Assembly: GCA_944323785.1 (NCBI GenBank) | Contig: CALUTU010000019.1 | Location: forward strand, 1 to 32,402 | Length of the DNA: 32,402 nt | Reading direction: 5' to 3' | Source: an uncultured Bacteroidales bacterium | GTDB lineage: Bacteria; Bacteroidota; Bacteroidia; Bacteroidales; UBA932 | Shown here: positions 8,114 through 32,211 of the stretch, one piece after another | How positions within the stretch are numbered: position 1 is the first letter of the stretch | How the letters are laid out: each line of letters opens with the position of its first letter | Made by a program: the position numbers and the translations under genes | The notes under the pieces: model-generated | What the model saw: only the letters and a program-made list of their open reading frames with translations | Told to the model about the DNA's origin: nothing | Databases searched by the model: none

Positions 8114-8116
8114 CGT

Positions 8117-15347: not shown

Positions 15348-16316
15348 CTACTGGTACAGCGAACCGGTGTTGAGTACAGGCTGGGCGGACTCGTCGGCGC
15401 AGAGAACCACGAGCAGATTGCTGACCATGGCGGCTTTCTTCGCCTCATCCAGCTCTACGATATCCTTGTCGTTTATCTCTTTGAGCGCCATCTGCACCAT
15501 GGATACGGCACCTTCGACTATCTTCTCGCGGGCGGAGATGATGGCCTCGGCCTGCTGGCGGCGCAGCATGACGGCCGCAATCTCGGGTGCGTAGGCGAGG
15601 TAGTTGATGCGGGCCTCGAGTACCGATATGCCGGCCATCTCCAGGCGCTCGTTGAGTTTCTCGACCAGCTCGCTGTTGATGGTATCGCCTCCGCTGCGCA
15701 GGGTAATGGTGTCGGCCTGCTCTATGCCGAGGTTGTCGTAGGCGTAGTTGCCGGCCACCTGGCGCAGGGCTGCGTCGCTCTGTACGCGGACGAAGGACTC
15801 GAGGGCTGTCATTATGCCTTCTTTGTTGATGGCGATGTTCTGGGTGTCTATCTCGAAGATGGCCTTGTAGACGTCCTCGACCTTCCATACGAGGATGAGG
15901 CCGACGAGGATGGGGTTGCCGTTGCGGTCATTGACCTTGATGGGGTCCACGTTGATGTTGCGGGCGCGGAGCGAGACTTTCTTCTTGGAGTAGAAGGGAT
16001 TGACCCAGAAGAAGCCGGTGCGGGTGAAGGTGCCGCGGTATTTGCCGAAGAATACCATGGCCCTGGCCTGGTTCGGCTCAAGGATCATGAGACCTATAAG
16101 GAGTACGGGAGAAATGATGAAGAGGAGAATGGCGGCTGTGCAGAGAATGCTGTAGACAGCACTGCCGATGGCGGTTTCATAGGTCTCTGCGATGTAGACG
16201 AAAGCGATGCCGGCGGCAATCAGGAGGATGCTGATAAAGATCATCAGAAATCCGTTGCATGCATGTCCCTGGAAGGGAGTGTCCTTTGTAATCTTGGAGT
16301 CGGAATGAGTTTTCAT
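15348..16316 (-). CDS. SPFH/band-7 (stomatin-like) membrane protein
   Basis: A 322-residue protein. Two hydrophobic segments lie at about 22-44 (GFLMIFISILLIAAGIAFVY) and 52-78. The SPFH domain follows from about 80 (PNQARAMVFFGKYRGTF, VSLRARNINVDPIKVND, ALESFVRVQSDAALRQV). A helical region rich in Ala and Glu (LRRQQAEAIISAREKIVEG) precedes a short conserved tail, LNTGSLYQ. SPFH proteins form large ring-like membrane assemblies linked to membrane domains and protein quality control; no NfeD or protease partner is present here. A near-perfect promoter lies directly upstream. Its C-terminal half is duplicated at 1434-1900. Confidence 0.93.
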   Translation of the reverse strand: MKTHSDSKITKDTPFQGHACNGFLMIFISILLIAAGIAFVYIAETYETAIGSAVYSILCTAAILLFIISPVLLIGLMILEPNQARAMVFFGKYRGTFTRTGFFWVNPFYSKKKVSLRARNINVDPIKVNDRNGNPILVGLILVWKVEDVYKAIFEIDTQNIAINKEGIMTALESFVRVQSDAALRQVAGNYAYDNLGIEQADTITLRSGGDTINSELVEKLNERLEMAGISVLEARINYLAYAPEIAAVMLRRQQAEAIISAREKIVEGAVSMVQMALKEINDKDIVELDEAKKAAMVSNLLVVLCADESAQPVLNTGSLYQ

Positions 16317-17108: not shown

Positions 17109-17116
17109 TATCTTTG
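17109..17116 (+). promoter_or_regulatory. -7 box of the nuclease/receptor operon
   Basis: TATCTTTG matches TAnnTTTG exactly, in an AT-rich stretch 52 bp before the ATG at 17168. The -33 element is weak (TTTA at 17081-17084, 24 nt away). The predicted start near 17123 leaves a leader of about 45 nt. No other plausible promoter separates the seven following genes. Confidence 0.65.
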
Positions 17117-17167
17117 CGCCAAAAAGGTAAAAGAACGTAAGGTTAATCTTTTATAAATTTTTCAGGT

Positions 17168-19390
17168 ATGTTAAAGATTTTAATGAAACTAGCAGGTGCG
17201 GTCATGATTCTGGCTGCAATCGCGTCCTGCAAGGAAGAAAAAGAGGATTTTGGTGTTCCGAGTATCGGAGTGAGCACCAACTCTGTAAGTTTCTCAGAGG
17301 CAGAGGGACGGCAGACTGTCAAAATCCTTTCCAGCCGCGACTGGACAGTTGAAATTGATTATGCAGTGGAGGTGGAAGAAGACTGGCTTGTAGTCACTCC
17401 GGCTTCCGGTAGCGCATCTCATGATTCTGTGGAGGTGGTGCTTTCTGTGCTAGCCAATTCTGCTGAGGACAGATCTGCAAGTGTAACATTCAATGCCGGA
17501 GCGTTAAGCGCGACAGTTTCTGTATTCCAGAAAGGTGAGGTCGCCAAGGAATATGACGCGATAGAGGATGTTAGAGCACTTTATCAGGGTGAGAATGTCA
17601 CTATCTCTGAGGACTGGACTATCTGCGGTACGGTAATCAGCAACTATCGTCACTCTGAAAGCGGTGGACTCAACAACGCAACATCACAGAAATCTGTGGT
17701 TATTCAGGACGAGACCGCCGGTATTGTTCTGTTCCTTGCTGAGAACAATAAGGAACTGGCGTTGGGAGATCGCATAGAGGTCAAAGTCAACGGTTTAGTA
17801 CTTCAGCGTTTCGACAATGGCTCTCTTCAGATAAATGCCGTGCCGATGGATAGAATCACTAAGATTACAACTGGTTCTCAGGTTGAGCCCAAGACCATAT
17901 CGGCATCAGAACTGGTAACAGGTGAGTATGAATCTCAATATGTGGCAGTGACAGATGTGCAGGTTGTGGATTCAGACCTCGGTAAGACATTCGTAACTCA
18001 GGATGGCGAAGGTAAAGACAGGCACACTTCTATCAATTTCATTTCAAGAACAGGAGTTAGATTTTTGCTGTTTTCATCCGCATATTCCACTTTCGGTGAC
18101 GAGCTCGTGCCGGAGGGCAGCGGAACACTAAAAGGTATAGCAGCTGTTCATGGTGGTGACTATCAGATAAGCATTACCTCAACAGATGATTATGCTGAAT
18201 TAACTGGAGAGCGTTTCGATAATTCAGGATTTGAACGTCCTCAGCCTACTAAAGCTACTATTGCAGAGGTGCTTGCAGCTTCTGTGAGCGGTTCAGTGTG
18301 GTATGAGATTACTGGAACCATCTCCAATATCGAGGCTTCGGATTATGGTAACTTCACTATTACGGATGAGACTGGTTCCATCTATGTGTACGGTCTTACA
18401 AGTGAATGGCGGGCTGATGGTAAGAATGATCAGTCTTTCCCTGAACTTGGTCTGAAGGCTGGTGATATACTTACGCTTGCCGGAACCAGAGATGAGTACA
18501 AGGATGAGCCTCAGATAGGAGGTCCTGCTTATTATATCTCACATAAAGATGGCGGCGGTGAGGATCCGGATCCTGATGAGCCTGGAGACTTGAAGGTGGC
18601 AACTATCGCAGAGTTCCTTGCAGCTCAGCCGGGTGACGGAGTGTGGTATCAGCTCACAGGAGAAGTGTACGACATCTATAATACCAGCTTCGGCAATTTC
18701 TGGATAAGGGATGATGCCGGTAATCAGGTTAGAGTGTATGGTCTTACCAGTACAAAGCAGGAAAGTAATGACCATTCGTTTGAGACCATCGGACTGAGTG
18801 AGGGTGATATTGTTACCATTGCAACACTTCGTGCCGAACATAACGGAGAGGCTCAGGCCGGCGGAACTCCTCCTGCATACTACATCTCTCATGAAGAGGG
18901 TGAGGAGCCTGAGGTTCCTACGGGAGACCCTACAGCCCTTATTATCTCTGAATATGTCGAGGGCAGCAGAAATAATAAGTATTTAGAGATTGCTAATATC
19001 TCAGACAGCGAGATAGACCTTGCTGCTTATACTCTGAGAAAGTATGTGAACGGTGCCGAGGACAACTTTGATGATATGACACTTAGTGGGACACTCGCTT
19101 CAAAGGCTGTAAAGGTATTCCGAATAAATACATCAGAACTTACATTGCCGGAAGGTGTTACAGCTGAGGTTACTAACAGTCAGGTTCTTAACTTTAACGG
19201 AGATGATCCTGTCGCATTGATATGCAACGGAGAAGTAGTGGATCTGTTAGGAGTGTTTGGGGATGTGGATTTCGGAAAGGATGTTACACTCAGACGTAAA
19301 TCGTCTGTGACAGCACCGTCGGCAACGTATAATGTTGATGAATGGGATACGCTGGAGCAGGATGATGTATCGGGTCTCGGTACTCTTTAA
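17168..19390 (+). CDS. Surface lipoprotein: BACON, DUF5689, two OB-fold-like repeats, lamin-tail domain
   Basis: 740 residues; the signal ends AIAS-C21 followed by KEEKED, a strong surface-export pattern. Domains in order: BACON (about 31-122, SSRDWTVEI, SVFQKG); DUF5689-like (about 126-347, with WTICGTVISNYRHSESGG and YVAVTDVQVVDSDLGKTFV); two related OB-fold-like units (about 362-459 and 477-575; VWYEITGTISNI and VWYQLTGEVYDI, each ending AYYISH); and a lamin-tail domain (about 587-735, ALIISEYVEGSRNNKYLEI). Lamin-tail and OB-fold-like domains are frequent partners of secreted nucleases, and DUF5689 is confined mostly to Bacteroidota. It has no evident catalytic site, so I infer a nucleic-acid-binding surface protein. 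It is the first gene of the operon, 13 bp before the nuclease. An ATG at 17183 is an alternative start. Its DNA is visibly AT-richer than that of its neighbours. Confidence 0.85.
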   Translation: MLKILMKLAGAVMILAAIASCKEEKEDFGVPSIGVSTNSVSFSEAEGRQTVKILSSRDWTVEIDYAVEVEEDWLVVTPASGSASHDSVEVVLSVLANSAEDRSASVTFNAGALSATVSVFQKGEVAKEYDAIEDVRALYQGENVTISEDWTICGTVISNYRHSESGGLNNATSQKSVVIQDETAGIVLFLAENNKELALGDRIEVKVNGLVLQRFDNGSLQINAVPMDRITKITTGSQVEPKTISASELVTGEYESQYVAVTDVQVVDSDLGKTFVTQDGEGKDRHTSINFISRTGVRFLLFSSAYSTFGDELVPEGSGTLKGIAAVHGGDYQISITSTDDYAELTGERFDNSGFERPQPTKATIAEVLAASVSGSVWYEITGTISNIEASDYGNFTITDETGSIYVYGLTSEWRADGKNDQSFPELGLKAGDILTLAGTRDEYKDEPQIGGPAYYISHKDGGGEDPDPDEPGDLKVATIAEFLAAQPGDGVWYQLTGEVYDIYNTSFGNFWIRDDAGNQVRVYGLTSTKQESNDHSFETIGLSEGDIVTIATLRAEHNGEAQAGGTPPAYYISHEEGEEPEVPTGDPTALIISEYVEGSRNNKYLEIANISDSEIDLAAYTLRKYVNGAEDNFDDMTLSGTLASKAVKVFRINTSELTLPEGVTAEVTNSQVLNFNGDDPVALICNGEVVDLLGVFGDVDFGKDVTLRRKSSVTAPSATYNVDEWDTLEQDDVSGLGTL

Positions 19391-19403
19391 TCAGACCTGT
19401 TAG

Positions 19404-20606
19404 ATGTTTCATAAGCATAAAGTTTTGAGGATTGTGATACTGCTGGCAGTGATGCTGCCGGCAGTATTATTGTCTTCATGTACCGAGGATGAGGGGCGTG
19501 AGGTCATGGGGGAGAAGGCGGTGAGGCTGTCCCGCGATACTGTCGCGTATGACCATACGGGTCAGTTTGTGACGATAGAGTCCTCGGTGGACTGGAGCAT
19601 ATCGCTCAGTTATGCCGGAACGCAGGACGGCTGGGCCAAGGTGTCGCCTGAGTCCGGAAGCGGCAGTGTCAATAATGTGATGCTGACTTATTCTGCCAAC
19701 GGGAGCGGTGAGTCGAGGGAAGTGGCCCTGAATGTGAGTTTCTCGGACGGCGAATTGGTGACAGTGACTCTGGTACAGACTGGAGATCCGAACGCTTCCG
19801 GCGGAGATGATCCGGACCCGGATCCCGATGACCCGTGGCCTGGTCTGGAGTCCGATCCGTATCAGTCAGGCTGGATGGAGCTTCCTGCAGTGGAAGATGA
19901 GGAGGGCAGGGCATTCATATACCATACAGCGGAGGTGGACGGACAGCAGAAACGCAATTATTCCATGCTGTATGATGCGGCCGGGAGGATTGCCTTATGG
20001 GTGGCATACCCGCTGTGCGGCGACTATATAGGCAGCGGGCGAACGGACGCATGGGGATATGACCCCAAGATACCGGACGAGTATGAGCCGCTGCTCAATC
20101 ACGGCTGGCCCGAGAGAGGCTTCGACCGGGGGCATCAGATACCCTCCGGCTCCCGCAACGCCAACACGGCCATGAACCGTCAGACTTTCTACTATACCAA
20201 CATGACGGCTCAGGTATCCCGTTTCAACCAGGGGTTGTGGGCCAATCTGGAGAACAGGGTCAGGGGTTTTGTCAGTGTCTGTGACACGCTCTATGTGGTG
20301 ACAGGTCCGATATTCGATTCGGGAGAGCCTGAGCGCTGGACAGAGGACAATGCCGGCAATCCGGTGGCAGTCCCCGACGGTTATTTCAAGGCCGTATTGA
20401 GTTACAGCGTCTCCAGTTCTGCATATTACTCCGTGGCATTTGTCTATGATAACGAGGAGTACAGCCGCAGCAACCCGACGGCTTCGGACATGTGCTCCGT
20501 CTCCGAGGTTGAGGCAATTACAGGATTTACATTTTTCAACAATCTGCCCCAAAGCGTGGCCCGGTCTGTGAAAAACCAGTGCGAGCCGGAGCGGTGGGGA
20601 CTCTAA
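19404..20606 (+). CDS. NUC1-type DNA/RNA non-specific endonuclease lipoprotein with BACON domain
   Basis: 400 residues. The signal ends VLLSS-C26 followed by TEDEGRE, suggesting surface display. A BACON-like domain covers about 38-126 (SSVDWSISLSYAG, VTLVQTG) and an Asp/Pro linker follows (GGDDPDPDPDDPWP). The nuclease domain (about 150-400) shows the beta-beta-alpha-metal signature DRGHQIPS with catalytic His244, metal-site Asn275 in RFNQGLW and Glu283 in NLENRVR. All key residues are intact, so it should cut DNA and possibly RNA in the presence of a divalent metal without sequence specificity. It sits between the DUF5689/OB-fold lipoprotein and a second nuclease, with gaps of 13 and 17 bp. 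Confidence 0.93.
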   Translation: MFHKHKVLRIVILLAVMLPAVLLSSCTEDEGREVMGEKAVRLSRDTVAYDHTGQFVTIESSVDWSISLSYAGTQDGWAKVSPESGSGSVNNVMLTYSANGSGESREVALNVSFSDGELVTVTLVQTGDPNASGGDDPDPDPDDPWPGLESDPYQSGWMELPAVEDEEGRAFIYHTAEVDGQQKRNYSMLYDAAGRIALWVAYPLCGDYIGSGRTDAWGYDPKIPDEYEPLLNHGWPERGFDRGHQIPSGSRNANTAMNRQTFYYTNMTAQVSRFNQGLWANLENRVRGFVSVCDTLYVVTGPIFDSGEPERWTEDNAGNPVAVPDGYFKAVLSYSVSSSAYYSVAFVYDNEEYSRSNPTASDMCSVSEVEAITGFTFFNNLPQSVARSVKNQCEPERWGL

Positions 20607-20623
20607 CTTGATAGACCAACAAG

Positions 20624-21658
20624 ATGAGGAAATTGATTCTGACCGCAGTGTTGCTTTTGGCTGTCTTCACCCTCAGGGCTGAGGACAAAAGCTATATAGT
20701 GACATTCTACAATGTCGAGAACTTCTTCGACATCTACGACGACCCCGCGACCAGGGACGAGGAGTTCACTCCTGACGGTCCCAAGGAGTGGACTCAGGCC
20801 AAGTATGACAAGAAACTGGCCAATATATCGCAGGTCCTGTACGGGATAGCTGCGGCCAATAAGAACTATCCGGCGGTTATCGGACTGTCGGAAGTGGAGA
20901 ACCGCAGGGTGCTTGAGGACCTGGTGTCTTCGGAGAAGCTGCGCCCGGCGCGTTACCAGATTGTACAATATGACTCGCCGGAACCCAGGGGCATTGATGT
21001 GGCGCTGCTTTTCCGCCCCGATGTGTTCACTCTTGAGTGGAGCGATGTCTTTCAGCCGGTGATACCGGAGATTCCGGATTTCAAGACCCGTGACATACTT
21101 GCCGTGTGCGGCACGATAGAGGGTGAGAGGTTCTGTTTCTTCGTCAATCACTGGTCGTCGCGCAGGGGCGGCTCGGCGGCCTCGGAGTTTTTGAGGGTAG
21201 GCTGTGCGGAGACAGTACGCCGCTATGCCGACTCGCTTCAGACCGTGTACCCGGATATCAAGATAGTGATAATGGGCGATATGAACGACGACCCGTACAA
21301 CAAGAGCCTTTCCGAGACGCTCGGCGCAAAGGAGAAAATCTCCGAGGTGGAGCCGGGGGGGTATTTCAATCCCATGTGGGCCATGCACAAGGCCGGCTAC
21401 GGCACTCTCGGCTATCAGGACGCCTGGAATCTCTTTGACAATATAGTTGTAAATTATAATCTGCTGGAGGAGGGCAGCGGCTCTCTTCACATCCGGCCAT
21501 CGGAGCGGAACGGCCTGTACGGCAGGGTGTTCAAGCGCAGCTACATGATTCAGCAGAAAGGACGTTACAAGAACTATCCCCTTCGCTCGTTCAGCGGTAA
21601 TTCTTTCCTCGGAGGATACAGCGACCATCTTCCGGTATATATAGTAATAGGTAAATAG
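20624..21658 (+). CDS. Exported endonuclease/exonuclease/phosphatase-fold nuclease
   Basis: 344 residues with a cleavable signal peptide (MRKLILTAVLLLAVFTLRA, cleavage near 19). The fold's motifs are complete: Asn30 in FYNVENFFD, metal-binding Glu90 in GLSEVEN, RGIDVAL (123-129), His176 in FVNHWSSRRGG, Asp219 and Asn221 in GDMNDDP, and Asp334-His335 in GYSDHLP. This superfamily includes DNase I-like nucleases and phosphodiesterases; the NHWSSR and SDHLP pattern is the one usual in Bacteroidota proteins annotated as endonucleases. It lacks a lipid cysteine, so it is probably periplasmic or secreted, where it could shorten fragments produced by the surface nuclease. A run of seven G near 21355 lies within the coding sequence. 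Confidence 0.92.
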   Translation: MRKLILTAVLLLAVFTLRAEDKSYIVTFYNVENFFDIYDDPATRDEEFTPDGPKEWTQAKYDKKLANISQVLYGIAAANKNYPAVIGLSEVENRRVLEDLVSSEKLRPARYQIVQYDSPEPRGIDVALLFRPDVFTLEWSDVFQPVIPEIPDFKTRDILAVCGTIEGERFCFFVNHWSSRRGGSAASEFLRVGCAETVRRYADSLQTVYPDIKIVIMGDMNDDPYNKSLSETLGAKEKISEVEPGGYFNPMWAMHKAGYGTLGYQDAWNLFDNIVVNYNLLEEGSGSLHIRPSERNGLYGRVFKRSYMIQQKGRYKNYPLRSFSGNSFLGGYSDHLPVYIVIGK

Positions 21659-21675
21659 AAGAATACAGACAATTT

Positions 21676-24471
21676 ATGAAAATCAAGACAGCTATTGTTG
21701 CGTTTATGCTGATGCTGGCGGCCCTTCCTGCTCTGGCGCAGACCGGAGGCGTGAGGGGTACGGTCATGGACAGGGACTTGTCCCGGCCCGTGAAAGACGC
21801 CAAGGTGACCTTGTTCTACACGGACAAGGAGATGTTCGTGTATACCGGAGCCGACGGAGTGTTTGAGTTTGACGGCATAGAGGACGGAGTGTACAATATG
21901 GAGATATCCGCCGCCGGATATCTGAAGACCCAGCTCAGTGTGCGGGTAAGCGGAGGAGAGGTATACGACCTCATGAACGTGTCCATCACACCGGATGTGC
22001 CTATGACGGACTTCATGAGCGATGACATGTTCGCGGACTTTGAGGTGGAGGACGAGTCCGGCTCGGGATACGAGGACGTGCCGTCGGTGCTTTCGGCCTC
22101 AAGGGATGTGTTTGACAACATCGCCTCATTCAGCTTCAGCCAGATGCGCTTTCTCAACCGAGGCTATGAGAGCGGTATGTCCGATATCTATATCAACGGC
22201 ATAAAGTTCAACGACGCTCTTAGCGGCTATACTCCGTATTCTCTGTTCAGCGGTCTGAATGAGGCTACCAGAGAGAAGGAGGCTGTAGGAGGAATGGCAC
22301 TTTCCGATTATGGCGTGAGCGGTATCAACGGACTTACCAATGTCAACGCGTATGCTTCGTCGGTGGCGAAGGGTTACCGCTTCAGTGTGCTGACCAACAG
22401 CTCCACCTACCGTCTGCGCCTGATGGCCACGTACTCCACCGGCCTGATGGACAACGGCTGGGCGTTTGCGGCCTCGGTGTCTACGCGTCTGGGCGGCAAC
22501 GACTATATCACAGGCGTGTACTACAATGCCTTTGCATATTTCCTGGCGGCTGAGAAGAGGCTGAACGACCAGCACCGCTTCTCGCTGACTCTTTTCGGCT
22601 CGCCCGTACAGCGCGGAGCGCAGAACGCCTCTACCCAGGAGGTGTACGACCTGATGGGCAGCAACTACTACAACTCCAACTGGGGCTACCAGAACGGCAA
22701 GGTGCGCAATGCCCGTGTGAGGAACAACCATGAGCCGGTGCTCCTGTTCAACTACGAGTACACTCCGTTCGATGACCTGAAAGTGACGGCCGGCGTGTCA
22801 TGGCGTTTCGGCCGCAACGGCTACTCGGCTCTCGACTGGTACGATGCTCCCGACCCTCGTCCGGACTACTACCGCTATCTGCCGAGCTATTTTGACGATG
22901 ACCCCGACAAATACGCGTGGGCCGTGGACGGCTGGAGATACAACAGCAACGTGCAGCACATCAACTGGGACAGGCTATATGATGTGAACCGCAACAGTAC
23001 ATTTGACGAGGGTATAGATTATAACCCGGCCATAGACGTGACCAATGCCTCACGCTCCAAGTACATCCTGGAGGAGAGACGCACGGACCAGAACGACATC
23101 AACGTCACCGGTCAGGTGACCAAGAGTTTCGGCTCCATACTGAAAGGCTCGCTCGGATACAATTTCCGCTGGAACCGTACCGAGTACTACAAGATAGTCA
23201 AGGATCTGCTCGGCGGTGACTACTGGCTCAACATCGACCAGTTCGCCGAGAGGGACTTCGGCTCGGATCAGGATGCTTACCAGAATGACCTGGACAATCC
23301 CAACCGTCTGGTAAAGGAGGGAGACAAGTACGGTTATGACTATTATGCCCATATCCGCAACCACAGGCTGTGGACGGCCTGGGACCTGAATGTGGGCGGC
23401 TTCGAGGCCACTCTCGGCGCGGAGCTGGGGTACAATACTTTCTGGAGAGAGGGTCTGGTACGCAAGGGCCTTTTCCCCGACAACTCTCTCGGCAATTCCG
23501 AAAAGTTGAATTTCCTGACATACAAGGCTAAACTGGGCCTTTACTACAAGTTCTCACCTCAGAACATGATATACGCCAATGTAGGCTACATGACGCAGGC
23601 CCCCTATTTTGAGGAGGCGTTCCTGTCGCCGAGAACGCGTAACAGTGTGGTGGACGGCCTTACGACCGAGAAGATATTCAGCGCGGATATCAACTATATG
23701 CTGAAAACCTCGTGGATATCCCTCCGCGTATCGGCGTTCTACACCACCATCAACGACCAGACGGACCTTATCAGCTTCTATGATGATATCCAGAGAGCTT
23801 TCACCAACTTCTCCATGACCGGTATTGACCAGCGCAATTACGGTATCGAGGCCGGAATCAAGGTGCCTATCTGGGGCGGTCTGGCATTCGAGGGCGCTGT
23901 AAGCTGGGGCAACTACGAGTACACCTCCAACCCCAATTTTACCCAGACTGTGGACAACAGCGCGAGGACAGTGCTGGAGAACCAGACTGTGTACTGGGAG
24001 GGCTTCAAGGTGGCGCGTACCCCTCATCTGGCCTCATCCATCGGCCTTACATGGGCCGGCCCGGGCTATCTGTTCGCCGGTATCGAGCTTAACTATTTCG
24101 ACGGCATGTACATCTCCATGAACCCCCTGCGCCGTACCGACTATGCGTTGGAAGGAATGGATGCATCCACCGAGGAGGGTATGGCCCTGATTAACGCCAT
24201 GAGGGAGCAGGAACAGTTTCCCCACGCCTTCGTGCTCAATGCCAACATCGGCAAGTCATGGTACATCGGAGGCAAGTATCTGCTTGGAGTCAGCGCCAAT
24301 ATCAACAATATCCTCAACAACCGCAATATCAAGACCGGCGGTTACGAGCAGATGCGTCTTTCCCGCGTAGAGGACGCTCAAGGTGAGTTCATGTACTATC
24401 AGCCGTTTGATACGAGGTATTTCTACCTGCACGGCATCAACTATATGATCAATGTATATTTCAGATTCTAA
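21676..24471 (+). CDS. TonB-dependent outer-membrane receptor
   Basis: 931 residues. The signal peptide ends near Ala21 (ALPALA-QTGG). A carboxypeptidase-regulatory-like domain (about 24-108, GVRGTVMDRDLSRPVKDAKV, AAGYLKTQ) precedes a plug-like region (DVPSVLSASRDVFDN, FLNRGYESGMSDIYINGI, about 137-240) and a long beta-barrel ending in the aromatic signal INVYFRF. The barrel is rich in Tyr, Asn and Asp in the style of Bacteroidota SusC-like or OmpA-plug receptors, but no SusD gene follows; a DUF5689 lipoprotein starts 12 bp downstream instead. With two exported nucleases directly upstream, its likely cargo is oligonucleotides or nucleosides, taken up with energy from TonB/ExbBD encoded elsewhere. 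Confidence 0.9.
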   Translation: MKIKTAIVAFMLMLAALPALAQTGGVRGTVMDRDLSRPVKDAKVTLFYTDKEMFVYTGADGVFEFDGIEDGVYNMEISAAGYLKTQLSVRVSGGEVYDLMNVSITPDVPMTDFMSDDMFADFEVEDESGSGYEDVPSVLSASRDVFDNIASFSFSQMRFLNRGYESGMSDIYINGIKFNDALSGYTPYSLFSGLNEATREKEAVGGMALSDYGVSGINGLTNVNAYASSVAKGYRFSVLTNSSTYRLRLMATYSTGLMDNGWAFAASVSTRLGGNDYITGVYYNAFAYFLAAEKRLNDQHRFSLTLFGSPVQRGAQNASTQEVYDLMGSNYYNSNWGYQNGKVRNARVRNNHEPVLLFNYEYTPFDDLKVTAGVSWRFGRNGYSALDWYDAPDPRPDYYRYLPSYFDDDPDKYAWAVDGWRYNSNVQHINWDRLYDVNRNSTFDEGIDYNPAIDVTNASRSKYILEERRTDQNDINVTGQVTKSFGSILKGSLGYNFRWNRTEYYKIVKDLLGGDYWLNIDQFAERDFGSDQDAYQNDLDNPNRLVKEGDKYGYDYYAHIRNHRLWTAWDLNVGGFEATLGAELGYNTFWREGLVRKGLFPDNSLGNSEKLNFLTYKAKLGLYYKFSPQNMIYANVGYMTQAPYFEEAFLSPRTRNSVVDGLTTEKIFSADINYMLKTSWISLRVSAFYTTINDQTDLISFYDDIQRAFTNFSMTGIDQRNYGIEAGIKVPIWGGLAFEGAVSWGNYEYTSNPNFTQTVDNSARTVLENQTVYWEGFKVARTPHLASSIGLTWAGPGYLFAGIELNYFDGMYISMNPLRRTDYALEGMDASTEEGMALINAMREQEQFPHAFVLNANIGKSWYIGGKYLLGVSANINNILNNRNIKTGGYEQMRLSRVEDAQGEFMYYQPFDTRYFYLHGINYMINVYFRF

Positions 24472-24483
24472 AACGACAAATCG

Positions 24484-25305
24484 ATGATGAGAGATATTAT
24501 AAAATATTCAGCATCCCTGCTGCTGGCCTGCCTGGCCCTTTCCGGCTGCCAGAAGTTCACCGAGCCTGAGCCTTATCAGTTTGCTGATATGGAACCGACC
24601 ATGACGCTGGCGGACTTTAAGGCTCTGTACACCGGCTCTCCGACAGAGATAACCGATGCTTCCATAGTCCTTGAGGGCAAGATTATCAGTTCTGACCGCA
24701 GCGGCAATGTCTACAGGACTCTTTATATCGAGGACAGTACGGCAGGACTCGAGGTCAAGATAGGCAAGACCGGCCTGTACAATGACTACAAGCTGGGACA
24801 GACTCTGTATATAAAGCCGCAGGGCCTTTATCTCGGAACTTACGGCGGCAGCGTGCAGTTGGGCGCCAGATCATACGAGGACAGGTACGAGACTTCGTGG
24901 ATAGACGTTCAGGGGCTTATAGACAAGACGATATTCAGAGGTGAGTTCGGAGACCCCCTGCCTCCCACCGACATAGACACGCTTACCGATAATATGGTGT
25001 GCCGCTATGTGCGTCTGAGCAATGTGTCCTATCAGGGCGGCTCTGACGGACTCCGTACATGGGCGGTCAGCAATGACCCGTATACAGGCCGCGAGGCTGC
25101 CTACGGAGAGCAGAACTTCGGACTGGATGATGCCACTGTCGTGGTCCGTACCAGCGGTTATGCCTCTTTCGCGGATACGGAAGTGGCGGAGAGCGGCATT
25201 ACCGGTCTGGGTGTCAGGTGCAATCTTACCGGAATACTTACTAAGTTCAATAGTACTTACCAGCTCGTTCTTTTGGACCTGGACGGGGTGGAGGTACTGG
25301 AATAA
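24484..25305 (+). CDS. DUF5689 lipoprotein paired with the receptor
   Basis: 273 residues; the signal ends LALSG-C22. Most of the mature protein resembles DUF5689 (TLADFKALYTGSPTEI, VLEGKIISSDRSGNVYRTLY, VRLSNVSYQGG, LTGILTKFNSTYQLVL), related to the central part of the 17168-19390 protein. The beta-rich repeats look OB-like. No catalytic motif is visible. Sitting where SusD sits in polysaccharide loci, it may act as the surface lid or substrate-binding partner of the receptor; that role is inference. Two ATG codons open the gene and either can be used. The next gene follows after 15 bp. Confidence 0.85.
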   Translation: MMRDIIKYSASLLLACLALSGCQKFTEPEPYQFADMEPTMTLADFKALYTGSPTEITDASIVLEGKIISSDRSGNVYRTLYIEDSTAGLEVKIGKTGLYNDYKLGQTLYIKPQGLYLGTYGGSVQLGARSYEDRYETSWIDVQGLIDKTIFRGEFGDPLPPTDIDTLTDNMVCRYVRLSNVSYQGGSDGLRTWAVSNDPYTGREAAYGEQNFGLDDATVVVRTSGYASFADTEVAESGITGLGVRCNLTGILTKFNSTYQLVLLDLDGVEVLE

Positions 25306-25320
25306 AAGCAGGTAGTGACG

Positions 25321-25728
25321 ATGAAAAAGGTATTGACAGTAATGGCTCTGGCAGTGGTGTGCGCCGCTGTCCAGAGCTGTGCTGACCGTCAGGTACGGGA
25401 AGCCGGAGCTATGGCGGAAAGCTTTGTGAAAGCGTATTTTGCGGCCGAGTATGACAAGGCTGCGGCGATGTGCGGGGATGATCTTCGTGCCAAGGTGGAG
25501 GAATCCGCAAGGCAGATAGAGACCCTGCCGGACTCGCTCAAGTCGGCATTTCTGGAACTGGCTGCGGAGCTGGAACCTCAGGCCGGCGAGGTGTACGAGC
25601 TGAGCAGGGACTCGGTGATGGTCGATTTCGACATCCTGGTGCCGGATGAGATTGAGCCTATGCGCAACAGTGTGCTGGTGGTCCGTAATTCCGAAACCGG
25701 AGTATGGAGCGTGGAGGAGATAAGGTAG
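25321..25728 (+). CDS. Small lipoprotein with NTF2/DUF4878-like domain
   Basis: 135 residues from the ATG at 25321; a GTG at 25315 is in frame but would only add two residues before the signal. The signal ends AAVQS-C20. The mature part (ESFVKAYFAAEYDKAAAMCG, ELSRDSVMVDFDILVPD, VWSVEEIR) has the helix-then-sheet layout of NTF2-like DUF4878-type proteins, which have no known enzyme activity. Its stop is one base from the start of the PHP gene, so translation of the two is coupled. I cannot assign a role; a periplasmic helper of the operon is possible. Confidence 0.75.
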   Translation: MKKVLTVMALAVVCAAVQSCADRQVREAGAMAESFVKAYFAAEYDKAAAMCGDDLRAKVEESARQIETLPDSLKSAFLELAAELEPQAGEVYELSRDSVMVDFDILVPDEIEPMRNSVLVVRNSETGVWSVEEIR

Positions 25729-25729
25729 T

Positions 25730-26566
25730 ATGAAAGGCGGATTGTTCGACAACCACAGTCACTCGTATTTTTCGGCTGATTCCCGCATGGATATTGTGGA
25801 TGCGGTCAAGACGGCGTATGAGAGAGGTCTGAGCGGTCTGTGTCTTACGGACCATCTGGATTTTGACCCTCCGGTGGGAGTGGCCGACTTCACGTTTGAC
25901 GTGCCGTCCCAGCAGGCGGCCATAGATGAGGATGTAGAGTACATGGGCATTGGCCGCAGTGGTGGAAAGTACGGGGATTTTCAGTTGCTCAAGGGGGTGG
26001 AGATAGGCCTGCAGGACAAGAGTATGTCTACTATACGGAATGTTCTGGCCGACAATAGATTTGACTGTGTGATAGCATCCCTGCATCTGATAGACGGCCA
26101 CGATCCCTATTTCGGGGACTACTACAGACCTTATGACTGGAAATATGCCTACGGACACTATCTGGAGGAGTTTGACCGTCTCATAAGGGTCATGCCGGAC
26201 TTTGACATACTCGGACATTATGACTATATCGTCCGTTATCCGGACTATAAGGAAGTGACGATATACTATTCGGACTTCGCGGATGTGCTGGACTCAATCC
26301 TGACTTTTCTGGTGCAGAACGGCAAGACCCTGGAGATAAACACCAAGACCTATCAACTGTACCGTGGAAGGCATCCGGAACTGGATATCAACATTCTGAA
26401 GCGTTTCCGGGAACTTGGGGGCGAGGCCGTGTCCTTCGGCTCGGATGCCCACAACATCACACGCATAGCCGACCGTTTCGACTGGTGCCGTCAGACGGCT
26501 CTGGCCGCCGGCCTCAGATATGAGGTCTACTATAAGGACCGCCATCCCGGTTTTGTGGCTCTTTAG
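25730..26566 (+). CDS. PHP-domain phosphoesterase (histidinol-phosphatase-like)
   Basis: 278 residues, no signal peptide, so cytoplasmic. The full trinuclear metal set of PHP enzymes is visible: His9 and His11 (DNHSHSYFSAD), Asp41-His42 (LTDHLDF), Glu91 (GVEIGL), His119 (ASLHLIDG), His163 (LGHYDYI), and Asp239 with His241 (FGSDAHNI). Overall it resembles HisJ/HisK-type histidinol phosphatases of about 270 residues. However, no histidine genes are nearby, and it closes the nuclease/receptor operon. PHP proteins also include oligonucleotide and nucleotide phosphatases (YciV/TrpH group), so a role in dephosphorylating imported nucleotides deserves consideration. The strong terminator at 26570 follows. 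Confidence 0.88.
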   Translation: MKGGLFDNHSHSYFSADSRMDIVDAVKTAYERGLSGLCLTDHLDFDPPVGVADFTFDVPSQQAAIDEDVEYMGIGRSGGKYGDFQLLKGVEIGLQDKSMSTIRNVLADNRFDCVIASLHLIDGHDPYFGDYYRPYDWKYAYGHYLEEFDRLIRVMPDFDILGHYDYIVRYPDYKEVTIYYSDFADVLDSILTFLVQNGKTLEINTKTYQLYRGRHPELDINILKRFRELGGEAVSFGSDAHNITRIADRFDWCRQTALAAGLRYEVYYKDRHPGFVAL

Positions 26567-26569
26567 TAT

Positions 26570-26611
26570 AGCCCGTATGGCCTATTCTTTTTCGGCCTTA
26601 CGGGCTTTTTT
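26570..26611 (+). terminator. Intrinsic terminator of the nuclease/receptor operon
   Basis: Arms AGCCCGTATGGCC (26570-26582) and GGCCTTACGGGCT (26594-26606) form a 13-bp stem with one mismatch and an 11-nt loop, followed by TTTTTT. The right arm and the loop lie in the last codons of the convergent gene at 26582-27019. Confidence 0.9.
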
Positions 26612-27019
26612 CTCGGCCTTCTCTATGGCTTTGAGGACTTTCAGCTCTTCCTTGCTGAGCTTGCCGATATCCCGGCGGTATATCATATATTGATACTCCG
26701 TCAGGACTTTTCTGTACGAACTGTCAATCTGGTCTGCCCATCTGTCCTGAACCTGTTTGTATACAGTGTATTCCTGTGTCCCGGATGTCTTGAGGGCCTC
26801 TATCTCATCGTGCAGGGCTTTCATGTCGTGCTGCAGTATGGAGTCTATGAAAAATGTCTGGTGCGGCTCCAGTTTGAGCAGTCTCTCAAGGCGGTTGGCC
26901 TCCTCTGTTGCTATCTCTTCCGGAGTCCTTTCTCCTTCCCCGTTCTGTGCGCGGAGTACTGTCGTGGAGGCAAGGACGGCCAGTGTGAGCATCAGCTTGA
27001 TGATAATGTCCCGTGTCAT
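26582..27019 (-). CDS. Small exported helical protein (possibly Spy/LTXXQ-like)
   Basis: 145 residues with a cleavable signal peptide (IIIKLMLTLAVLASTTVLRA). The mature protein is predicted to be almost entirely helical and highly charged (ATEEANRLERLLKLEPHQ, LQHDMKALHDEIEALK), ending in a Lys/Glu repeat tail (KAEKKARKAEKE). The layout recalls periplasmic Spy/CpxP-like chaperones, but the LTxxQ motifs are not clear, so I leave it as a hypothetical periplasmic protein. It faces the nuclease operon and its last codons are part of that operon's terminator. A TACATTTG box at 27066-27073 lies upstream. Confidence 0.7.
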   Translation of the reverse strand: MTRDIIIKLMLTLAVLASTTVLRAQNGEGERTPEEIATEEANRLERLLKLEPHQTFFIDSILQHDMKALHDEIEALKTSGTQEYTVYKQVQDRWADQIDSSYRKVLTEYQYMIYRRDIGKLSKEELKVLKAIEKAEKKARKAEKE

Positions 27020-27094: not shown

Positions 27095-28804
27095 ATGAAT
27101 AAATTCCTGAAATCAGCACTATGCGCCGCTTTTGCCATGATGTCCGTGCAGAGCGGTCTCGCATGTACTAATGTATTGGTAACCAAGGGTGCCTCCAAGG
27201 ACGGATCCGTGCTTGTGACCTATGCGGCCGACTCGCATCAGCTCTACGGAGAACTGTATTTTACCCCTGCGGGCTTCTTCAAGCCGGGTGTCATGCTCAA
27301 TGTGACCGAATGGGACACAGGCCGTTTCCTCGGCCAGATACCCCAGATAGGCCGGACCTATCAGACAGTGGGCAACATGAACGAGCACCAGGTCATCATC
27401 ACCGAGACTACATACGGCGGCCGTCCCGAGCTCTATGACCCGGACGGTATCATGGACTACGGCTCGCTTATCTATATCACCCTGCAGAGGGCCAGGACAG
27501 CCCGTGAGGCCATTCAGATCATAGCGGACCTGGCCAATGAGTACGGCTATGCCTCCAGCGGCGAGTCATTCTCGATAGCCGACAAGGACGAGGTGTGGAT
27601 CATGGAGCTCATCGGTAAGGGCAGCAAGCTGGACAAGAAGGGCCGCAATGTCCGTAAGGGCATCGTATGGGTGGCAGCCCGTGTCCCGGACGGATATATC
27701 TGCGCCCATGCCAACCAGGCCCGTATCACCAACATCAACTTCGATGACCCTGAGAACTGGCTCTACTCTGAGGACGTGGTGGATTTCGCCCGCGAGATGG
27801 GCTACTTCGAGGGTACCGACGAGGAGTTCAGCTTCTGCGACGCATATGCTCCCCTGAACTTCGGAGCCCTGAGAGGCTGCGAGGCCAGGGTATGGTCGGC
27901 TTTCAACATCCTCTGCGACGGTATGATAGGAGACCGTCCGGCCGATGAGTATCTGGATTTCGCCATGGGTTACAATGCCGACAACCGTCTGCCTCTCTTC
28001 GTGAAGCCTTCCGAGAAGGTCAGCCTGAAGGATGTGGCCGACGTGATGCGCGACCATTTTGAGGGCTCGCCCATGGATATGACCGTTGATGCCGGTGCCG
28101 GCGGACATCACACTCCCTACAGGTGGAGACCGATGGAGTTCGAGTATGACGGCAAGACTTATGTCAATGAGCGTGCCATCGCCACCCAGCAGACCGGATT
28201 CTGGATTGTATGCCAGAGCCGCAGCTGGCTGCCCGACGAGATCGGAGGCGTTATATGGTTCGGTACGGACGATGCCGCTACTTCCTGCCTGACTCCCGTC
28301 TATACCACAGTCAATGAGATTCCTGGCTGCATCAAGGTCGGCAACGGCAGTATGCTGGAGTATTCCCCCACATCCCTCTTCTGGGTCACCAACCGTATAG
28401 CCAATTTCGCCTATATGCTCTATGACCGTATCGAGCCAGAGGTGCGTGAGGTCATCGATGCCCGTGAGAATGCAGCCATAGAGGAACAGCCGGAGATAGA
28501 TGCCGCCGCTCTGAAGATTCTGGGCGAGACTCCTACCGAGGAGAGCATTGCGGCTACCCGCGACTTCCTGACCAGTTACAGCATCGCTCAGGCCCAGAGT
28601 CTGTTCGATACATGGAAAGAGCTAGATATCTACCTGCTCGTCAAGTATATGGACGGCAACGTGAAGAAGGAGAACGGGCACGGAACATTCCTCAATAACG
28701 GATATTCCGACCGTATTCCCGCCTCTCCCGACCAGCCCGGCTACAGTGACAAGTGGAAAGAGGTCGTGGCCAAGGATGCAGGCGAGGTCCTGGAAGTAAA
28801 GTAA
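27095..28804 (+). CDS. Exported C69-family dipeptidase
   Basis: 569 residues. The signal peptide (MNKFLKSALCAAFAMMSVQS) ends at Ala23, directly before Cys24 in CTNVLVTKGAS, the N-terminal nucleophile of C69/PepD-like (U34) dipeptidases. Also visible are NEHQVIITETTYGGR, GSLIYITLQRARTAREAI, WVAARVPDGYICAHANQAR and WFGTDDAATSCLTPVY, all usual in the family. It belongs to the Ntn-hydrolase superfamily and should release amino acids from dipeptides in the periplasm. Length is close to Bacteroidota relatives. It has its own promoter; cdaA follows after 15 bp and may be read through. Confidence 0.95.
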   Translation: MNKFLKSALCAAFAMMSVQSGLACTNVLVTKGASKDGSVLVTYAADSHQLYGELYFTPAGFFKPGVMLNVTEWDTGRFLGQIPQIGRTYQTVGNMNEHQVIITETTYGGRPELYDPDGIMDYGSLIYITLQRARTAREAIQIIADLANEYGYASSGESFSIADKDEVWIMELIGKGSKLDKKGRNVRKGIVWVAARVPDGYICAHANQARITNINFDDPENWLYSEDVVDFAREMGYFEGTDEEFSFCDAYAPLNFGALRGCEARVWSAFNILCDGMIGDRPADEYLDFAMGYNADNRLPLFVKPSEKVSLKDVADVMRDHFEGSPMDMTVDAGAGGHHTPYRWRPMEFEYDGKTYVNERAIATQQTGFWIVCQSRSWLPDEIGGVIWFGTDDAATSCLTPVYTTVNEIPGCIKVGNGSMLEYSPTSLFWVTNRIANFAYMLYDRIEPEVREVIDARENAAIEEQPEIDAAALKILGETPTEESIAATRDFLTSYSIAQAQSLFDTWKELDIYLLVKYMDGNVKKENGHGTFLNNGYSDRIPASPDQPGYSDKWKEVVAKDAGEVLEVK

Positions 28805-28819
28805 TCAATAAGTCTCCGG

Positions 28820-29614
28820 ATGTTTGACTTCATCAACATATCGGTCATTGATATTATCGACATCATCCTGGTAGGTCTTCTGATCTACCAGATGATGCGG
28901 ATAATACGCGGCACTTCGGTGTTCAACATCGTCACCGGCATATTGCTGTTCTATCTGGTATGGGTAGTGGTGAAGGCCTTGAACATGAAGCTGCTGTCCT
29001 CGATTCTGGGTCAGATTCTCGGAGTCGGAGTGATAGCGCTGATCGTCATTTTCCAGCCGGAGATACGCCGTTTTCTGCTGCACATAGGGAGCAAGTACCT
29101 CTCGTCGTCCCGCAACAATCTTCTTACCCGTCTGCTGCTGGGACGCAATGACAAGGAGATACAGGCCACGGCCCTGGACGAGATTACCCAGGCCTGCCGC
29201 AGGATGGCCGACACCCGCACCGGTGCTCTCATCGTATTGCAGCACAACTCTTCCCTGGAGTTCGTCACAGAGACCGGGGACCGCATAGACGCGGCGGTCA
29301 ACAGGCGTCTGATAGAGAATATTTTCTATAAGAACACACCTTTACATGACGGGGCGATGGTCATCGACGCGGACCGCATAATCGCTGCCCGCTGCACCCT
29401 TCCGATAGTGGACAACCCTGATATCCCGCCGCAGTATGGCATGAGGCACAGGGCTGCCGTCAGCATCACCAAGGATACCGACGCGGATGCCATCGTGGTG
29501 TCTGAGGAGACGGGCAACATATCTTTCGTAAGCGGTGGCGAGATGAAGACCATCACCAGTATGAGCGAGCTGAAGCTCTCGATTGAGAATTCCTACCGTA
29601 AGGAGAACGTATGA
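28820..29614 (+). CDS. cdaA: Diadenylate cyclase CdaA
   Basis: 264 residues. Three N-terminal membrane helices (about 1-75; DIILVGLLIYQMMRIIRG, FNIVTGILLFYLVWVVV, ILGVGVIALIVIFQPEIRR) precede the DAC/DisA_N domain. The active-site motifs are complete: Asp177-Gly178-Ala179 in LHDGAMVI and Arg209-His210-Arg211 in GMRHRAAV. It makes c-di-AMP from two ATP at the inner membrane, which controls potassium, osmotic balance and envelope stress. The usual neighbours glmM and ybbR are absent. Its stop overlaps the mutS2 start by 4 nt (ATGA at 29611-29614), so the two are translated together. Confidence 0.97.
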   Translation: MFDFINISVIDIIDIILVGLLIYQMMRIIRGTSVFNIVTGILLFYLVWVVVKALNMKLLSSILGQILGVGVIALIVIFQPEIRRFLLHIGSKYLSSSRNNLLTRLLLGRNDKEIQATALDEITQACRRMADTRTGALIVLQHNSSLEFVTETGDRIDAAVNRRLIENIFYKNTPLHDGAMVIDADRIIAARCTLPIVDNPDIPPQYGMRHRAAVSITKDTDADAIVVSEETGNISFVSGGEMKTITSMSELKLSIENSYRKENV

Positions 29615-32211
29615 CAAATGAGGTAAAGATAGAGGCCAAGCTGGGTTTTGACAAACTCCGCGGTAGTGTCGCCGCCCGTTGTTCCACCGGTTATGGCCGG
29701 GAAAGGGCGGAGGGCGAGATTGTGTCCGTTGAGCCGGCGGAGATAGAGCGTCGTCTGGGTCTGGCCGACGAGATGCGGGTGATCCTGATGTTCGAGACGG
29801 CCTTTCCCAATTCTGGCTTCGGGGACTGCATTCCCTTTCTGGTGCCGCTGCGCAGTCCTTACTCGCATATCGACCTGCCTTCGCTGATAGTGCTGCGCGG
29901 CTCTCTGGATGCCCTGCGCAGGATTCTGGCATTTTTCAGCGGCTGTAAGGAGGGGCAGTATCCGCTGCTGAGGGAGATGGCCTCTGCAGTGCTGTCTTTC
30001 CCGGAGGTTCTGCGGAGGATAGATGAGATTCTGGACAAATACGGGGAGGTGCGCGACAATGCCTCCGAGGAGCTGTACGCCATCCGCCGGGCCATCAAGG
30101 ATAAGGAAGGGGCTGTGTCGCGGCGTATTCAGGCCATATTGCGTAAGGCTCAGGAGGAGGGCGTGGCTGATGCCGATGCCTCTGTCTCTGTACGCGAGGG
30201 CAAGGTTCTGATACCGGTATCCTCCAGCAATAAGAGAAAGTTGCCGGGCATAGTTTACGACGAGTCGGCTTCGGGCAGGACCTCGTTCATCGAGCCGATG
30301 GAGGTGGTCGAGCTCAACAATCAGCTGCGCGAGCTGCATTTCGAGGAGCAGAGGGAGATACTTCGGATACTGACGGTGTTTACGGATTTTCTCAGACCTT
30401 ATATCGACGATGTCATCGAGTCGCAGAAGTTCATGGGCGAGCTGGATTTCATTATGGCCAAGGCCTCTGTGGCTTCCCGCTTCAAGGGCGGCAAGCCGGT
30501 GCTTTCCGACAGGGGCGAGCTGATTCTGCGCCAGGCCCGTCATCCTTTGCTGGAGGAGGCTCTGACCAAGGAGGGCAAGAAGATAGTGCCGCTGGATATC
30601 GTGCTGACTCCGGCCAAGCGCATCCTGCTGATATCCGGGCCCAATGCGGGCGGCAAGTCGGTATGCCTCAAGACTGTCGGCCTGCTGCAGTACATGTTCC
30701 AGTGGGGTCTGCCCGTGCCGGCCTCGGAGAGTTCGGAACTGACGGTCTTCCACGATATGTTCGTGGACATCGGCGATGACCAGTCGCTGGAGAACGACCT
30801 GAGTACCTACAGCTCGCATCTGCTGAACATGAAGGAGGCCGTTACCTTGGCCGATGACCGTTCTCTGGTGCTCATAGACGAGTTCGGCTCAGGTACCGAG
30901 CCGGCGGCCGGAGGCGCGATAGCCGAGGAGATACTCAGTGAGTTTGAGAAAAAAGGCTGCTACGGGGTCATCACCACCCATTATACCAACCTGAAATTCT
31001 ATGCCAGCAACAGCAGCCGTATCGTCAACGGGGCGATGCTCTTCGACGTGCAGAAGATCCAGCCGCTGTTCCGTCTGGAGATAGGGCTGCCCGGCAATTC
31101 CTTTGCCTTTGAGCTGGCCCGGAAGATAGGACTTCCGGAGAGTATCGTACACGGAGCCGAGGAGAGGGCCGGCAAAGATTATGTGGCCGTGGAGCGCAAT
31201 CTGCGCAAGATAGCCCGCAACAAGCGCGAGCTGGAGGAACGGCTTGTGCGTGTCAAGGCAGCCGACCGTACTCTGGATTCCATGACGGAAAAATACGAGA
31301 AAGAACTGTCCGAGATAAAGGCCCTGCGCAAGAGCGTGCTCGAAGAGGCCAAGGCCCAGGCCGCGGAGATAGTGGCTCAGGCCAACAGACAGATAGAGCG
31401 GACTATACGGGAGATACGCGAGTCCCAGGCCGAGAAGGAGCGGACTCAGCTGGTGCGTTCCGAGCTGCGGGACTTCGCCGCGTCGGTAGCCGATGACTCG
31501 GCGGCCCGCAGCGAGATGGAGGCCCGCATCGAGCGGAAGATGGCCCAGATAGTGGAGCGCAAGAGGCGGCAGGAGGAACGCCGTGCCCGTCGCGCCGCCT
31601 CTGGAACCCCGGATGGTCGGCCGGGAGCTTCGCCAGGTGTTTCCTGCAGTTCTGTCGCACCTTCAGGGCTTGGCTTCTCCGGCGGAAATTCCGGCGGCGT
31701 ACCTGGAGCCGGTGCCCCGGATGATGCTGCACCTGAAAGTATCAGACCCGGTGCATATGTACGGCTTGAAGACAGCGGCATGACCGGCGAGGTGGTACAG
31801 GTCTCTGGCAAGAAGGCCACTGTGGCCGTAGGTGAGATACTGACCCGTGTGGATATTTCCAAACTTGCGCTTCTGTCGGCCAACCAGTACCGTGCCTCGG
31901 TAAAGTCTTCCGCTTCGGTCAAGTCCGGTGTGCGGCTCTCGTCTTCCATCTCGGAGCGCAAGCTCAATTTCAAGCCCTCGATAGATGTCCGGGGTATGCA
32001 TCTGGAGGAGGCCATACCGGCAGTCACCGACTTTATCGACGATGCCCTGATGGTCGGGGTCTCCGAGGTGTCCATCCTCCACGGCAAGGGGGCCGGAGTC
32101 CTCAAGGAGGAGATCCGCAAGTTCCTGAAGATCACTCCTGGTGTAGTCTCATTCGCCAACGAGCACGTCGAGCGCGGCGGCGCCGGCATCACTGTCGTCA
32201 AGTTGGCTTGA
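29611..32211 (+). CDS. mutS2: Endonuclease MutS2
   Basis: 866 residues, somewhat longer than the usual 780-830. The core and clamp regions (LGFDKLRGSVAARCSTGYGR, PGIVYDESASGRTSFIEP) precede the ATPase with Walker A GPNAGGKS (343-350) and Walker B LVLIDEFGSG (Asp423, Glu424). A long coiled coil spans about 510-660. The C-terminal Smr nuclease domain starts near 791 (DVRGMHLEEA) and contains HGKGAG (824-829). The protein binds branched DNA, suppresses recombination and in some bacteria rescues collided ribosomes. Odd: a Gly/Ser/Ala/Pro-rich linker of about 48 residues (about 664-712) sits between the coiled coil and the KOW-like segment (GAYVRLEDSGMTGEV). Confidence 0.97.
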   Translation: MTNEVKIEAKLGFDKLRGSVAARCSTGYGRERAEGEIVSVEPAEIERRLGLADEMRVILMFETAFPNSGFGDCIPFLVPLRSPYSHIDLPSLIVLRGSLDALRRILAFFSGCKEGQYPLLREMASAVLSFPEVLRRIDEILDKYGEVRDNASEELYAIRRAIKDKEGAVSRRIQAILRKAQEEGVADADASVSVREGKVLIPVSSSNKRKLPGIVYDESASGRTSFIEPMEVVELNNQLRELHFEEQREILRILTVFTDFLRPYIDDVIESQKFMGELDFIMAKASVASRFKGGKPVLSDRGELILRQARHPLLEEALTKEGKKIVPLDIVLTPAKRILLISGPNAGGKSVCLKTVGLLQYMFQWGLPVPASESSELTVFHDMFVDIGDDQSLENDLSTYSSHLLNMKEAVTLADDRSLVLIDEFGSGTEPAAGGAIAEEILSEFEKKGCYGVITTHYTNLKFYASNSSRIVNGAMLFDVQKIQPLFRLEIGLPGNSFAFELARKIGLPESIVHGAEERAGKDYVAVERNLRKIARNKRELEERLVRVKAADRTLDSMTEKYEKELSEIKALRKSVLEEAKAQAAEIVAQANRQIERTIREIRESQAEKERTQLVRSELRDFAASVADDSAARSEMEARIERKMAQIVERKRRQEERRARRAASGTPDGRPGASPGVSCSSVAPSGLGFSGGNSGGVPGAGAPDDAAPESIRPGAYVRLEDSGMTGEVVQVSGKKATVAVGEILTRVDISKLALLSANQYRASVKSSASVKSGVRLSSSISERKLNFKPSIDVRGMHLEEAIPAVTDFIDDALMVGVSEVSILHGKGAGVLKEEIRKFLKITPGVVSFANEHVERGGAGITVVKLA

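Follow-up and report, generated by a model that had tools for sequence, protein, structure and literature searches.

We analyse a stretch of DNA, here called the window, that comprises the whole of contig C19 (32,402 bases) from a draft genome (G000; 1.97 Mb, 87% complete) of an uncultured Bacteroidales bacterium. Among the named-record matches listed, bins of uncultured Bacteroidales and Candidatus Coprenecus are its closest relatives. Our subject is a seven-gene operon at positions 17168-26566. By sequence comparison, two of its products, a TonB-dependent transporter and a 273-amino-acid (aa) DUF5689 lipoprotein, are orthologues of RA0C_RS04915 and RA0C_RS04920, an adjacent pair that Riemerella anatipestifer needs for natural transformation. 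On balance we think it probable, by a modest measure, that the operon encodes a TonB-powered outer-membrane importer that captures, cuts and imports nucleic acids. An earlier interpretation drawn from the letters of this DNA (the sequence-only reading) had proposed nucleic-acid scavenging, and it is partly supported: the parts fit capture, cutting and TonB import, the link to transformation was missed, and scavenging is one of two live purposes.

Relation to a Riemerella gene pair required for transformation

The pair was identified in R. anatipestifer by screening transposon mutants for natural transformation (PMC8459023, cited throughout from excerpts). RA0C_RS04915 carries a CarboxypepD_reg domain and is predicted to lie in the outer membrane, the adjacent RA0C_RS04920 combines DUF5689 with DUF5017, and separate markerless deletions of the two each abolish transformation. 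Within these excerpts the pair is without similarity to known transformation proteins, the uptake model is speculative, and the adjacent nuclease of the endonuclease/exonuclease/phosphatase family (EEP) figures only as an upstream gene. Homologues of RS04915 are placed in Flavobacteriaceae only in one passage and in the phylum at large in another; the transporter profile used here extends them to the whole class. In a literature search of titles and abstract starts (outside most subscription journals and all preprints), only this paper names DUF5689 or the pair, and the receptor/DUF5689 pair is not the subject of the OMP71 paper (PMC11481396) as excerpted. Mutants of Riemerella in tonBA and tonBB transform less, and the authors, in the excerpted text, ascribe the tonBB effect to iron (PMC8383284).

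We located the Riemerella locus with the published comEC primer across 296 genomes of one family (exact match in two genomes of one genus) and examined 20 kb around the pair in the Riemerella genome used, G497. The order there is RecA, DinB-like and succinate dehydrogenase genes (read from N-termini), ComEC (marked by the comEC primers), two genes, EEP, transporter and DUF5689; it agrees stepwise with locus tags RS04870, RS04895, RS04910, RS04915 and RS04920, and the transporter and DUF5689 proteins show the published domains. The window transporter finds its G497 counterpart at E 2.3e-109 (next match 4.7e-19), and the Riemerella transporter finds that of G000 at E 2.2e-109 (next match 4.9e-4): they are full-length reciprocal best hits with 30-32% identity, and the runners-up are at least 90 orders of magnitude weaker by E-value. 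In a tree they fall into one group against three paralogues with SH-aLRT support of 100; the inner forks are weaker in part (87 for the fork holding the window side).

The likeness extends to the neighbourhood. In both organisms the transporter has an N-terminal CarboxypepD_reg domain, a DUF5689 gene follows directly downstream (the single one of G497, on the same strand; G000 has two, both inside the operon) and an EEP gene is adjacent, the window EEP being 40% identical over 303 aa to the product of RA0C_RS04910. The Riemerella locus differs in that its EEP gene is divergent, whereas the window has all genes in one operon, and in that we find no gene for the window's second nuclease (NUC1) or for its large lipoprotein with lamin-tail (LTD) and OB-like parts within the 20 kb. 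The Riemerella DUF5689 protein also has a DUF5017-like C-terminal part, a weak match (4.2e-5) that is not found in the 273-aa window protein.

Layout of the operon

The seven open reading frames (ORFs) run head to tail on one strand with gaps of 13, 17, 17, 12, 9 and 1 bp (Table 1), and the neighbouring long ORFs taken as genes sit on the opposite strand, which confirms the operon and the gaps of 1-17 bp claimed for it by the sequence-only reading. The terminator of that reading is also borne out: only 1 of 200 shuffled sequences folds equally well, and the hairpin overlaps the 3' end of the convergent ORF. Its claim of one promoter for the whole operon is plausible on sequence: by eye, TATCTTTG fits the Bacteroidota -7 motif, TAnnTTTG. 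A sigma-70 scan gives no promoter match in the region of 17109-17116.

Table 1. Features of the operon and its borders in the window.
Feature	Position	Strand	Description
Neighbouring long ORF	15348-16316	-	
Possible Bacteroidota promoter -7 element	17109-17116	+	by eye, reads TATCTTTG
740-aa lipoprotein	17168-19390	+	BACON, DUF5689 (residues 132-341), two OB-like repeats, lamin-tail (LTD)
NUC1, DNA/RNA non-specific endonuclease lipoprotein	19404-20606	+	PF01223 Endonuclease_NS; N-terminal BACON-like match, sub-threshold
EEP, exported endonuclease/exonuclease/phosphatase-family enzyme	20624-21658	+	PF19580 Exo_endo_phos_3
TonB-dependent transporter, 931 aa	21676-24471	+	N-terminal CarboxypepD_reg; orthologue of RA0C_RS04915 by sequence
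273-aa DUF5689 lipoprotein	24484-25305	+	PF18942 2e-45; orthologue of the DUF5689 part of RA0C_RS04920 by sequence
Small lipoprotein, accessory	25315-25728	+	no family above cut-off; lipobox-like VQSC by eye
PHP-domain phosphoesterase, HisJ family, accessory	25730-26566	+	PF02811 8.1e-22; TIGR01856 110.1 bits (cut-off 90.2); no signal peptide by eye
Intrinsic terminator	26570-26612	+	stem 26570-26606, then T run; -22 kcal/mol, z -3.88
Neighbouring long ORF	26582-27019	-	

Structure models of the transporter and its partner

At E 0.05 the transporter hits neither a plug nor a barrel family of Pfam, nor any model for TonB receptors or SusC. We call it TonB-dependent because its structure model combines a plug with a large beta-barrel, the fold of TonB transporters, and as modelled it is a plugged transporter of this kind. 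The model of the 273-aa DUF5689 lipoprotein consists of two OB folds in tandem (pLDDT 93), and its best Foldseek matches are the DNA-binding proteins RPA and HIN-200, with SSB also among them; the window protein differs from these in being an exported lipoprotein, and its DUF5689 profile has no match among PDB sequences at E 1. Its lipobox reads LSGC by eye, with C22 invariant in 37 rows. The fold, together with the Riemerella phenotype, suggests that this protein may bind DNA.

How do these parts compare with known outer-membrane systems? In BtuB-BtuG of Bacteroides the partner fold is not OB, and the ligand of that system (PDB 8blw, 8bmx) is vitamin B12. Loci of the Sus type (SusCD) likewise place lipoprotein, enzyme and TonB-dependent transporter in one operon. 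The window has nucleases instead of glycosidases, and no SusC or SusD model matches any of the seven proteins at E 0.05, so the Sus-like layout of the sequence-only reading holds as an analogy alone and membership of the Sus family is rejected.

Two nucleases and a large lipoprotein

Both nucleases belong to established families and, judged from aligned sequences, have intact catalytic residues in predicted active sites. NUC1 matches PF01223 at 8.4e-46 (156.8 bits against a cut-off of 23), as well as the structures of Serratia nuclease (1.1e-18) and EndoG; G243, H244, N275 and W279 are kept in all 87 aligned copies (the window's included) and R242 in 86, and the first D of the DRGH motif in only 41. 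EEP matches PF19580 at 2.5e-110 (368.8 bits against a cut-off of 27), and E90, G218-D219 and N221-D222 (GDxND) and D334-H335 (DH) are kept in 129/129 aligned copies, which include the window's own, Riemerella's and those of other members of the class. EEP has no match among PDB sequences at 0.001, and a plasmid search finds relatives in 10 records, each less than 60% identical. Two genomes of the window's family carry a further EEP gene behind DUF5689 (L042:5072-6094, L043:12198-13223).

The 740-aa lipoprotein carries the lipobox IASC followed by KEEKED. Its two extra OB-like repeats are 47% alike over 106 columns (the OB domain match is sub-threshold), and its DUF5689 part weakly resembles a replication factor A model (7.7e-4, under the curated cut-off). 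In relatives, the region upstream of the operon encodes very large proteins that contain DUF5689/OB and LTD stretches (1462 aa at L033:266-4654, 1079 aa at L039:1415-4654). In ExeM, LTD, OB and EEP stand in a single protein. The window's LTD part resembles the ExeM model (2.4e-36, under the curated cut-off) and EEP weakly resembles the extracellular DNase models ExeM and NucH. The difference is that the window has two separate proteins beside a TonB transporter: the 740-aa lipoprotein and EEP (17168-21658, +) have the make-up of an ExeM/NucH DNase, as if split. A full-length DNase of either kind is rejected, the scores reaching 125.1 of the 1300 bits and 32.2 of the 300 bits required.

Lipoboxes are present in NUC1 and in the two DUF5689 proteins, and an acidic stretch, the kind of signal that directs lipoproteins to the surface when it lies behind the lipobox, follows in two of the three, which suggests that these lipoproteins are probably surface-exposed. 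The components named by the sequence-only reading are confirmed (two exported nucleases with intact active sites, a TonB-dependent receptor, and two DUF5689 lipoproteins, one with OB-like and lamin-tail domains). RNA as a substrate, which it also proposed, finds no support here beyond the family name of NUC1.

Conservation of the gene set

We searched 392 genomes of the phylum (at least 90% completeness requested) with the transporter profile, counting as full-length any match above 630 bits. Such homologues occur in 65 genomes, the window's own included, all in the same class; beyond it no score exceeds 247 bits. Three sets of loci were then compared, a locus being testable for a gene when its contig reaches far enough. 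In the named set (the best 80 of at least 588 confirmed matches in named genomes, biased to close relatives), DUF5689 directly follows the transporter in 78/78 testable loci, EEP lies ahead of it in the same orientation in 77/77, NUC1 lies at most 3.2 kb upstream of it in 73/73, and an LTD- or DUF5689-like gene stands further upstream in 35/62. Because the set recurs in 73-78 of as many testable loci, a chance neighbourhood is untenable; the sequence-only reading had made conservation in relatives its test beforehand, and that test came out in its favour.

The second set holds 20 loci from relatives in the order, picked for a DUF5689 match and overlapping the named set in some genomes. The transporter adjoins DUF5689 in all 20; EEP is upstream in 18/18 testable loci (on the same strand in 13, divergent in 5), and 13 of the 18 also have NUC1 upstream, the other five having EEP divergent. 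The phylum-wide set comprises 40 of the other 64 genomes with a full-length transporter. Here DUF5689 follows the transporter in 36 of the 40 (L176 has an overlapping DUF5689 frame; L180, L193 and L195 have none by profile) and EEP is adjacent in 33/39 testable loci, divergent in 32. NUC1 is upstream of the pair in just 2/38 testable loci and downstream in a third, L184; these three of the 40, all in the window's order, are the only ones with NUC1 anywhere in the stretch, and the 37 stretches outside the order have none. The pattern, as read from these sequences, is of a widespread core (transporter, DUF5689 and EEP) that NUC1 joins in part of the Bacteroidales.

DUF5689 itself is patchily distributed: any such gene is found in 30 of 59 genomes surveyed (the window's own counted) and, within the genus, in 12 of 18 further genomes, several of them incomplete drafts. 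The small lipoprotein (relatives in 3/80 named and 8/20 second-set loci) and the PHP phosphoesterase (3/80 and 6/20) are local extras, and the phosphoesterase is not the conserved finishing step that the sequence-only reading made of it. Clustering of neighbours over 121 loci, which favours long frames and gives counts that are lower bounds, adds an M3-family peptidase (so identified on checking) in at least 44 of the 80 named loci; the window operon has no such gene. Six other families recur (TonB receptor, sugar isomerase, GH92, iPGM, ROK and one without a match), together with two clusters without a family assignment, one of them resembling antisense frames by eye. At L124:13980-16190 the M3-family peptidase after DUF5689 has a lipobox-like start.

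Function of the operon

In the mechanism that we favour, the two exported DUF5689 lipoproteins (740 and 273 aa), with their tandem OB folds, would hold DNA at the cell surface, NUC1 and EEP would cut it, and the transporter, together with the 273-aa lipoprotein, would let strands or fragments pass its barrel. From there, the work would fall to proteins of the periplasm and inner membrane with genes elsewhere (an HHH protein, ComEC) or to general nucleotide salvage. DNA as the ligand, its import, the placement at the cell surface and the use of TonB are what we infer from the parts. Feeding (on phosphorus, nucleosides or carbon) and transformation are both compatible with the data, and in Riemerella the same core serves transformation. 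For the window's bacterium, feeding is somewhat likelier than gene transfer, because the gate shares its transcript with two exported nucleases and NUC1 is absent from beside the Riemerella pair and from the stretches outside the order; the same gate may serve both.

Several points weigh against the importer. We know of no experiment on the system in any Bacteroidales. The M3 peptidase gene directly follows DUF5689 in 41/75 testable named loci, mostly with gaps of at most 10 bp, which points to a peptide or nucleoprotein cargo as well and has slightly lowered our confidence, and none of the recurring neighbours identified in the 121-locus clustering is for nucleoside use. The DUF5689 proteins are acidic, and the modelled plug would leave little room for DNA unless moved. 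Finally, Flavobacterium johnsoniae has homologues of the pair and was not competent under the conditions used, according to the excerpted study (PMC8459023); it also has pilus-like homologues.

Could the operon be a natural-transformation apparatus above all? We think this unlikely. Such an apparatus would use the Riemerella-type gate, NUC1 and EEP would make one entering strand, as is done by pneumococcal EndA of the same Endonuclease_NS family, and the HHH protein, ComEC and DprA would follow. Orthology to the essential Riemerella pair speaks for it, as does the conservation of the catalytic residues of EEP in Riemerella and elsewhere in the class. So does the lack of any match to a PilQ-type secretin (PF00263) in the six genomes searched (G000, itself 87% complete, four relatives and G497; the control matched 6/14), a result that also speaks against secretin- or pilus-type uptake. 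G000 encodes ComEC, DprA and an HHH protein bearing a hydrophobic N-terminal stretch, making a complete DNA route to the cytoplasm possible there. Two of these genes discriminate poorly: ComEC is near-universal (380/392 genomes, including all 65 with a full-length transporter), and PF12836, the HHH marker, matches 8/8 genomes, the top match being to a frame of some 710-750 codons, presumably another protein, Tex. In Riemerella the HHH protein has 447 aa and three HHH stretches; its match in G000, a 278-aa protein, is no more than 27% identical over 102 aa. Linkage to comEC fails as a general rule, being close in Riemerella, within 30 kb in G111 and G165, and far apart in single-contig genomes such as G087, G256 and G366. 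In another genome, G095, an HHH gene adjoins a frame that by eye resembles the start of ComEC (L224:1-2445). Against an apparatus for transformation above all, two co-transcribed exported nucleases would shorten the transforming DNA, and NUC1, scarce upstream phylum-wide, is not beside the Riemerella pair and is therefore dispensable for transformation there. Our literature search of titles and abstract starts shows no transformation study in these gut genera; Porphyromonas gingivalis, an oral member of the Bacteroidales, is taken to be transformable in excerpts of PMC8459023 and elsewhere in the literature listed.

It seems to us improbable, to a greater degree, that the nucleases act on extracellular DNA for other ends (biofilm or mucus DNA, host traps) and that the transporter imports a product they release, for example nucleotides, or else an unrelated ligand (peptides, for instance) instead of DNA strands. 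The resemblance of the LTD part to ExeM and of EEP, weakly, to ExeM/NucH would suit this, as would the small ligands carried, by their titles, by the TonB transporters in the fold-match lists, and the peptidase gene of the relatives. Yet Riemerella cannot be transformed by added DNA unless it has the orthologous transporter, which has no NUC1 beside it there, and the partner lipoprotein in the window is, as modelled, a tandem OB protein. Least of all do we credit an indirect Riemerella phenotype (for example an envelope defect), with OB folds binding something else and the nucleases loosely associated: the excerpts of PMC8459023 do list envelope genes among the hits (apolipoprotein N-acyltransferase, lysophospholipid acyltransferase), the OB fold is promiscuous and the DUF5689 proteins are acidic, but deletion of either of two adjacent genes causes complete loss of transformation and a catalytically conserved EEP adjoins the transporter throughout the testable named loci and in most phylum-wide ones.

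Other genes of the window

Upstream of the operon, an RND efflux operon (6989-12657, +) encodes an HlyD-type adaptor, an AcrB-type pump and an OEP outer-membrane protein, directly followed by an alpha-L-fucosidase with an F5/8 type C domain (12664-14088, +). Downstream, 27095-32211 (+) encodes a C69 peptidase, a CdaA-type diadenylate cyclase and a MutS domain V/Smr (MutS2-like) protein.

Implications

The route of DNA across the outer membrane in this phylum is an open question, for which the excerpted Riemerella study offers a speculative model (PMC8459023). Here the Riemerella pair is tied to two folds, to an adjacent nuclease and to operons of many gut Bacteroidales that come with nucleases. 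If this is right, it would supply three testable proteins for DNA uptake, a nucleic-acid feeding route in the gut and a possible route of gene exchange there. We also venture a broader proposal, which we regard as possible rather than probable: that the Bacteroidia have a class-wide, secretin-free, TonB-driven DNA translocon (plugged transporter, tandem-OB DUF5689 lipoprotein and EEP), shared by gut Bacteroidales and by Riemerella and its kin, which would move DNA strands rather than small nutrients and make the gut members competent, and that a subset of the Bacteroidales gained a second nuclease, in many cases with a peptidase as well, for combined feeding and gene uptake.

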